Assembly (NCBI GenBank): GCA_946403545.1
Contig: CAMJAG010000003.1
Span: 1 to 35,296, forward strand
Length of the DNA: 35,296 bases
Reading direction: 5' to 3'
From: an uncultured Caryophanales bacterium
GTDB lineage: Bacteria > Bacillota_I > Bacilli_A > RFN20 > CAG-826
Shown one piece after another: positions 7,197 through 7,436 of the stretch. Below the pieces are notes generated by a model. It made no database searches, had not been told where the DNA came from, and worked only from the letters and a program-made list of their open reading frames with translations. Positions within the stretch are counted from its first letter, which is position 1. Each line of letters opens with the position of its first letter. Both the position numbers and the translations under genes were made by a program.

Positions 7197-7228
7197 AAAA
7201 AAGCACTTCATCCGAAGTGCTATTTTTT
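7197..7228 (+). terminator. Intrinsic terminator after the SBP-permease operon
   Basis: AGCACTTC-ATCC-GAAGTGCT then T-tract. Confidence 0.75.
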
Positions 7229-7234
7229 TAAATC

Positions 7235-7310
7235 TGGTGGCTCAGGCCGGGAGCGCGCCGGCGACACTCAGATTTTCAGTCTGATGCTCTACTAACTGAG
7301 CTACCGAGCC
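7235..7310 (-). tRNA. tRNA-Phe (GAA) with non-canonical T-loop
   Basis: Acceptor GGCTCGG/CTGAGCC, D-stem GCTC/GAGC, anticodon arm TCAGA-CTGAAAA-TCTGA, T-stem GCCGG/CCGGC, encoded CCA; T-loop reads CGCGCTC rather than TTCRANY. Confidence 0.85.
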
Positions 7311-7360: not shown

Positions 7361-7436
7361 TGGCGGACCATACGGGAATCGAACCCGTGATCTTCTCCGT
7401 GACAGGGAGACATGTTAACCGCTACACCAATGGTCC
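7361..7436 (-). tRNA. tRNA-Asp (GTC)
   Basis: Acceptor GGACCAT/ATGGTCC, anticodon arm TCTCC-CTGTCAC-GGAGA, canonical T-loop TTCGATT, encoded CCA. Confidence 0.95.

Follow-up and report, generated by a model that had tools for sequence, protein, structure and literature searches.

Few parts of tRNA are as highly conserved as the TPsiC loop and G18, and the ribosome, RNase P, and other readers of the elbow use the G19-C56 platform. The staphylococcal peptidoglycan tRNA-Gly, which are extra isoacceptors, have altered bases in the D- and T-loops. In a normal tRNA, U54.A58 forms a trans Watson-Crick/Hoogsteen pair that is stacked on G53-C61, while G18 and G19 are the partners of U55 and C56, respectively (PMC7912444). 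Natural departures from this arrangement have been described. The eukaryotic initiator tRNA carries A54.A58 instead of T54.A58 (PMC7912444), and tRNA-Pyl and the type II mitochondrial tRNAs are natural tRNAs without G18 and the TPsiC sequence, in which G19-C56 or the D/T-loop contact is lost and other parts are altered (PMC7609411). Here, we analyzed a tRNA-Phe gene in a window of 35,296 nucleotides (the whole stretch of DNA under study) from an uncultured Caryophanales bacterium, in which the two contacts beside G19-C56 are both changed.

The tRNA-Phe gene and its elbow

ARAGORN and Rfam RF00005 agree on a tRNA-Phe(GAA) at the position given in Table 1. The Rfam match scored 58.4 bits, with the gathering threshold at 29. 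All 21 of the 21 stem pairs form, G6-U67 among them, and the minimum-energy structure obtained by RNA folding is the cloverleaf. The gene is normal at U8, A14, G15/C48, G53-C61, G57, A73, and the CCA end. Its D-loop, AGTTAGTA, contains A18 and keeps G19. Compared with the loops usual in relatives (AGTNGGTA and TTCGATC), the window tRNA-Phe differs at 18, 54, 55, and 58, and these four changes are exactly both partners of two tertiary pairs; four random changes among the 15 D- and T-loop positions would hit those four with a chance of 1 in 1365, a post hoc figure. The canonical elbow set G18, T54, U55, and A58 is absent, and G19-C56 is present. The initial annotation had described paired stems, A18, and a CGCGCTC T-loop, with both partners of each contact changed and G19-C56 kept; ARAGORN, Rfam, and a base-by-base reading of the positions bear this anatomy out, and reading the neighboring tRNA-Asp likewise agreed that it is canonical.

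The spacing from tRNA-Asp to tRNA-Phe is 50 nt, and the Asp-Phe tandem order is found in most relatives. A third tRNA of the window, with a CAT anticodon (Met), lies right at the contig end (35222-35294, minus strand), where the Rfam model finds it and ARAGORN misses it.

Table 1. Features at and around the tRNA-Phe gene, in window coordinates.
Feature	Position	Strand	Remark
tRNA-Phe(GAA), encoded CCA, remodelled D-loop/T-loop elbow	7235..7310	-	ARAGORN, Rfam, folding
Position 18, A for G; partner of 55	7293	-	covaries with G55
Position 19, G unchanged; partner of C56	7292	-	
T-loop CGCGCTC (C54 G55 C56 G57 C58 T59 C60), replaces TTCRANY	7251..7257	-	
tRNA-Asp(GTC), canonical	7361..7436	-	upstream in tandem pair with tRNA-Phe
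Terminator-like hairpin and T-run	7202..7221	-	directly 3' of tRNA-Phe; plus-strand reading also possible

Paired variation at 18/55 and 54/58

Order-wide, we read both pairs in 65 distinct tRNA-Phe genes. The combination at 18/55 was G/U in 56, A/G in 7, and G/C in 2, while that at 54/58 was U/A in 52, A/U in 9, and C/C in 4. None of the 65 genes had A18 without G55 or G55 without A18, and none had a one-sided change at 54/58. The 18/55 association gave a Fisher value of 1.4e-9 in a simple test that is inflated by relatedness. These counts, like the other frequencies given here, are those of samples. A scan of public genomes for A18 tRNA-Phe, with one genome per species, revealed 68 loci from Bacilli, Mycoplasmataceae, Omnitrophota, Planctomycetota, and Alphaproteobacteria. 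G55 was present in 35 of the 37 distinct A18 tRNA-Phe genes called by ARAGORN, a fraction that gives G55 given A18 rather than an overall frequency, as the scan was conditioned on A18 and a fixed D-stem. The clear exceptions were three Bacteroidales records with A18 and TTCGATT. G19-C56 was retained in the A18 tRNA-Phe genes of both the public scan and the order sample. In a class-wide sample, all tRNA-Phe matches listed outside the order (about 150) had G18 and TTCRANN.

The A54/U58 form of tRNA-Phe (ATCRTYC), with G18/U55 kept, was observed at L035, L042, L043, L183-L188, and L195, in the genera g3, g7, and g9. A tRNA-His(GTG) with an A18-type D-loop and TGCGACT occurs in the window's genome and two relatives (L197-L199; G000, G012, G015), and the tRNA-His of other relatives is canonical. 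At two loci with an Omnitrophota-type A18 tRNA-Phe (L065 and L117), tRNA-Thr(CGT) also has A18, with TGCAANT, so the A18/G55 combination is not limited to tRNA-Phe. T-loops with C55 (TCCRANN) and G18 kept were seen in tRNA-Thr(GGT) (L023 and G191) and in some tRNA-Met, tRNA-Ala, and tRNA-Asn (L031, L036, L038, L122, L151). The two covariation rules, for 18/55 and for 54/58, could be used by tRNA finders and by models of the tRNA fold.

We hypothesize that the elbow is probably preserved through substitution of its contacts, as judged by comparison with known pair geometries. Within the trans Watson-Crick/Hoogsteen family, UA and CC are isosteric, as shown for sarcin-ricin motifs rather than for tRNA T-loops (PMC8450098). 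This isostericity would account for U54.A58 becoming C54.C58 as a unit, with C54.C58 taking the place of the reverse-Hoogsteen pair; the A/U form at 54/58 is outside the explanation that the UA/CC isosteric group offers. A18.G55 would stand in for the G18-Psi55 contact, and G55 may hold the turn of the loop in the same way that G supports the turn in GNR turns (PMC12550061). The outer platform that G19-C56 forms would be retained for the readers of the elbow. Our search, covering part of the literature, turned up neither A18.G55 nor C54.C58 as described features of tRNA, and none of the papers searched gave the geometry that an A18.G55 contact takes in tRNA. The gene thus read would be a natural experiment on what an elbow needs, with G19-C56 and pair geometry placed over base identity or modification.

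Conservation, history, and probable role in translation

Among 39 relatives, two other genera of the family carried the identical 76 nt, and two further genomes, one from another family, had close versions. In the order sample, which comprised 281 genomes whose tRNA-Phe genes were then read, the identical 76-nt gene was present in genera g1, g5, g16, g38, g43, and g44, and a near-identical tRNA-Phe in g8 and in g31, the latter belonging to another family. An identical or near copy thus occurs in no fewer than six more genera of the family, as well as in one genus elsewhere, and public records titled uncultured Bacilli, Bacillales, or Erysipelotrichaceae also carry such a tRNA-Phe. The DNA flanking tRNA-Phe is unrelated between genera. 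The initial annotation had considered a decaying copy or an assembly error. The window's assembly is fragmented (87 contigs), but the same sequence recurs in many independent assemblies, and the perfect stems, the encoded CCA, and the terminator-like hairpin also oppose such an origin. Conservation across genera with unrelated flanks excludes both possibilities, to which we assign practically no credence; comparison of the locus in relatives revealed one gene shared across genera and no one-off mutation.

The genome G030 (L031), which belongs to another family and has a very divergent RpoB, contains a 96% identical tRNA-Phe inside its own tRNA cluster, while its tRNA-Asp is only 79% identical. 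The G030 allele appears to reflect horizontal replacement or convergence, and for this genome the comparison is suggestive of recent horizontal spread. Because flanks are unrelated everywhere, an ancestral allele that was strongly conserved is a possible account inside the main clade. In the RpoB tree, the A18 forms fall in one clade of 15 genomes, together with two canonical genomes, in addition to the distant G030, and the A/U form at 54/58 has two placements. Between the sisters G190 and G191, positions 54 and 58 are the sole differences along the whole tRNA-Phe, with CC in one and UA in the other. Since canonical genes exist alongside intermediates with TGCGATC or TGCAANN and the end form CGCGCTC, 18/55 probably changed before 54/58; G18.U55 would have become A18.G55 first, followed by U54.A58 to C54.C58. 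Alternatively, the changes may have been reversed, or the allele may have spread between genera.

The window's genome, which is 87% complete, yielded 27 tRNAs, one of them a tRNA-Phe. One tRNA-Phe hit each was obtained in the carriers G004, G015, G030, and G007, by searches able to detect a canonical tRNA-Phe too. The full tRNA set was read in one carrier, the sister G191, which is of the TGCGATC rather than the CGCGCTC type; its 44 tRNAs cover all amino acids and include a single tRNA-Phe, with A18 and TGCGATC. Its tRNA-Thr(GGT) has C55, and the remaining non-Phe tRNAs are canonical at 54, 55, and 58. Neither the window's genome, at the completeness given above, nor the carriers examined nor G191 showed a further tRNA-Phe isoacceptor next to a canonical one, and in each of them the gene is the only isoacceptor found for Phe codons. 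The gene has the GAA anticodon and A73 expected of a tRNA-Phe and keeps the bases that serve Phe identity: G34, A35, A36, and A73 are common to all studied Phe identity sets, with U20 and U59 as determinants (PMC9976931), and all six are retained.

Taken together, the copy number and the identity bases indicate that the window gene is most likely the organism's only translational tRNA-Phe. We estimate a probability of roughly 85% that it is an ordinary essential elongator with substitute elbow contacts. The clade apparently reads all Phe codons with a tRNA-Phe that has no G18, T54, U55, or A58. The initial annotation had raised a specialized, non-translational role like that of the staphylococcal peptidoglycan tRNA-Gly, which would fit the loss of T54, Psi55, and G18. 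Such a role is highly improbable, since each genome has just one tRNA-Phe as far as the searches reached and the Phe identity bases are intact; the retained G19-C56 also speaks against it, and we rejected it on single-copy status. Of that earlier interpretation, the anatomy and the paired changes stand, while the specialized role, the decaying copy, and the assembly error do not.

Possible causes of the remodelling and comparison with known tRNAs

Judged from its gene, the window tRNA-Phe cannot carry Psi55, m5U54, or m1A58. TruB was found in 29 of the 29 genomes tested (in G194 by a partial match), so Psi55 was lost through the sequence and not through loss of the enzyme; TruB loss was rejected as the cause. 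For TrmFO (TIGR00137), no match over the curated cut-off was found in any of the 15 A18.G55 genomes tested, G030 included, or in 6 of the 17 genomes without A18.G55 (Fisher 1.1e-4, a test that relatedness inflates). In the window's clade, TrmFO had no match over the cut-off, and such matches were observed in other members of the order.

The remodelling may have arisen because small genomes underwent compensatory drift, which the loss of TrmFO made easier, or by selection specific to tRNA-Phe. Loss of TrmFO may have relaxed the constraint on the elbow: without the enzyme, U54.A58 would be weaker and substitutes would be tolerated. The distribution over the 15 A18.G55 genomes and the others is consistent with such drift, which we regard as a rather unlikely explanation. 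Against it, 3 of the 4 A/U genomes tested possess TrmFO (G006, G129, and G002), and G181, G021, and G011 lack it and are canonical. The presence of TruB throughout also argues against drift after loss of T-loop modification. Moreover, the change at 54/58 is confined to tRNA-Phe, and TrmFO loss does not account for the change of one isoacceptor alone.

This confinement, which holds among the tRNAs sampled, would be expected if tRNA-Phe had been remodelled repeatedly to escape an agent that reads its elbow or its gene, such as a toxin or nuclease that attacks tRNA, or an integrase with an attachment site in the T-arm; paired changes would alter the recognized surface yet maintain function. Consistent with escape, one order contains both A/U and C/C, hence two forms or more, besides A18.G55, while tRNA-Phe is canonical in all matches listed in the wider class sample. 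The tRNA-Phe varies while the neighboring tRNA-Asp is identical (G014, G181), and G030, of another family, has its 96% identical allele inside its own tRNA cluster. Against escape, the analysis brought up no candidate agent. A search of the window's genome for partial copies of the 3' end of tRNA-Phe gave nothing at E <= 0.001, on which an attachment-site remnant was rejected, and no integrated element was seen adjoining the gene. A phage origin was rejected, as the matches to the window tRNA-Phe in a phage collection had only 79-88% identity and none of them spanned the full length with high identity. We therefore consider escape unlikely as the driver, and it is to the same degree doubtful that the lineage replaced both elbow contacts besides G19-C56 under agent-driven diversifying selection on the tRNA-Phe elbow.

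The gene that we read as an ordinary elongator with substitute contacts resembles canonical bacterial tRNA-Phe(GAA) in its cloverleaf, arm lengths, anticodon loop (CTGAAAA), variable loop (GTGTC), U20, U59, A73, G19-C56, and tandem arrangement with tRNA-Asp. It differs in having A18, C54, G55, and C58 instead of G18, T54, U55, and A58, and hence has no sites for m5U54, Psi55, and m1A58. With the eukaryotic initiator tRNA it shares a natural exchange of the 54.58 pair for another, but it is an elongator, the pair is C.C, and 18.55 is replaced as well. Like the staphylococcal peptidoglycan tRNA-Gly, it has altered D- and T-loop bases; those are extra isoacceptors, whereas the window gene is the only tRNA-Phe found. 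Unlike tRNA-Pyl and the type II mitochondrial tRNAs, it retains its arm lengths and G19-C56, and its changed positions covary.
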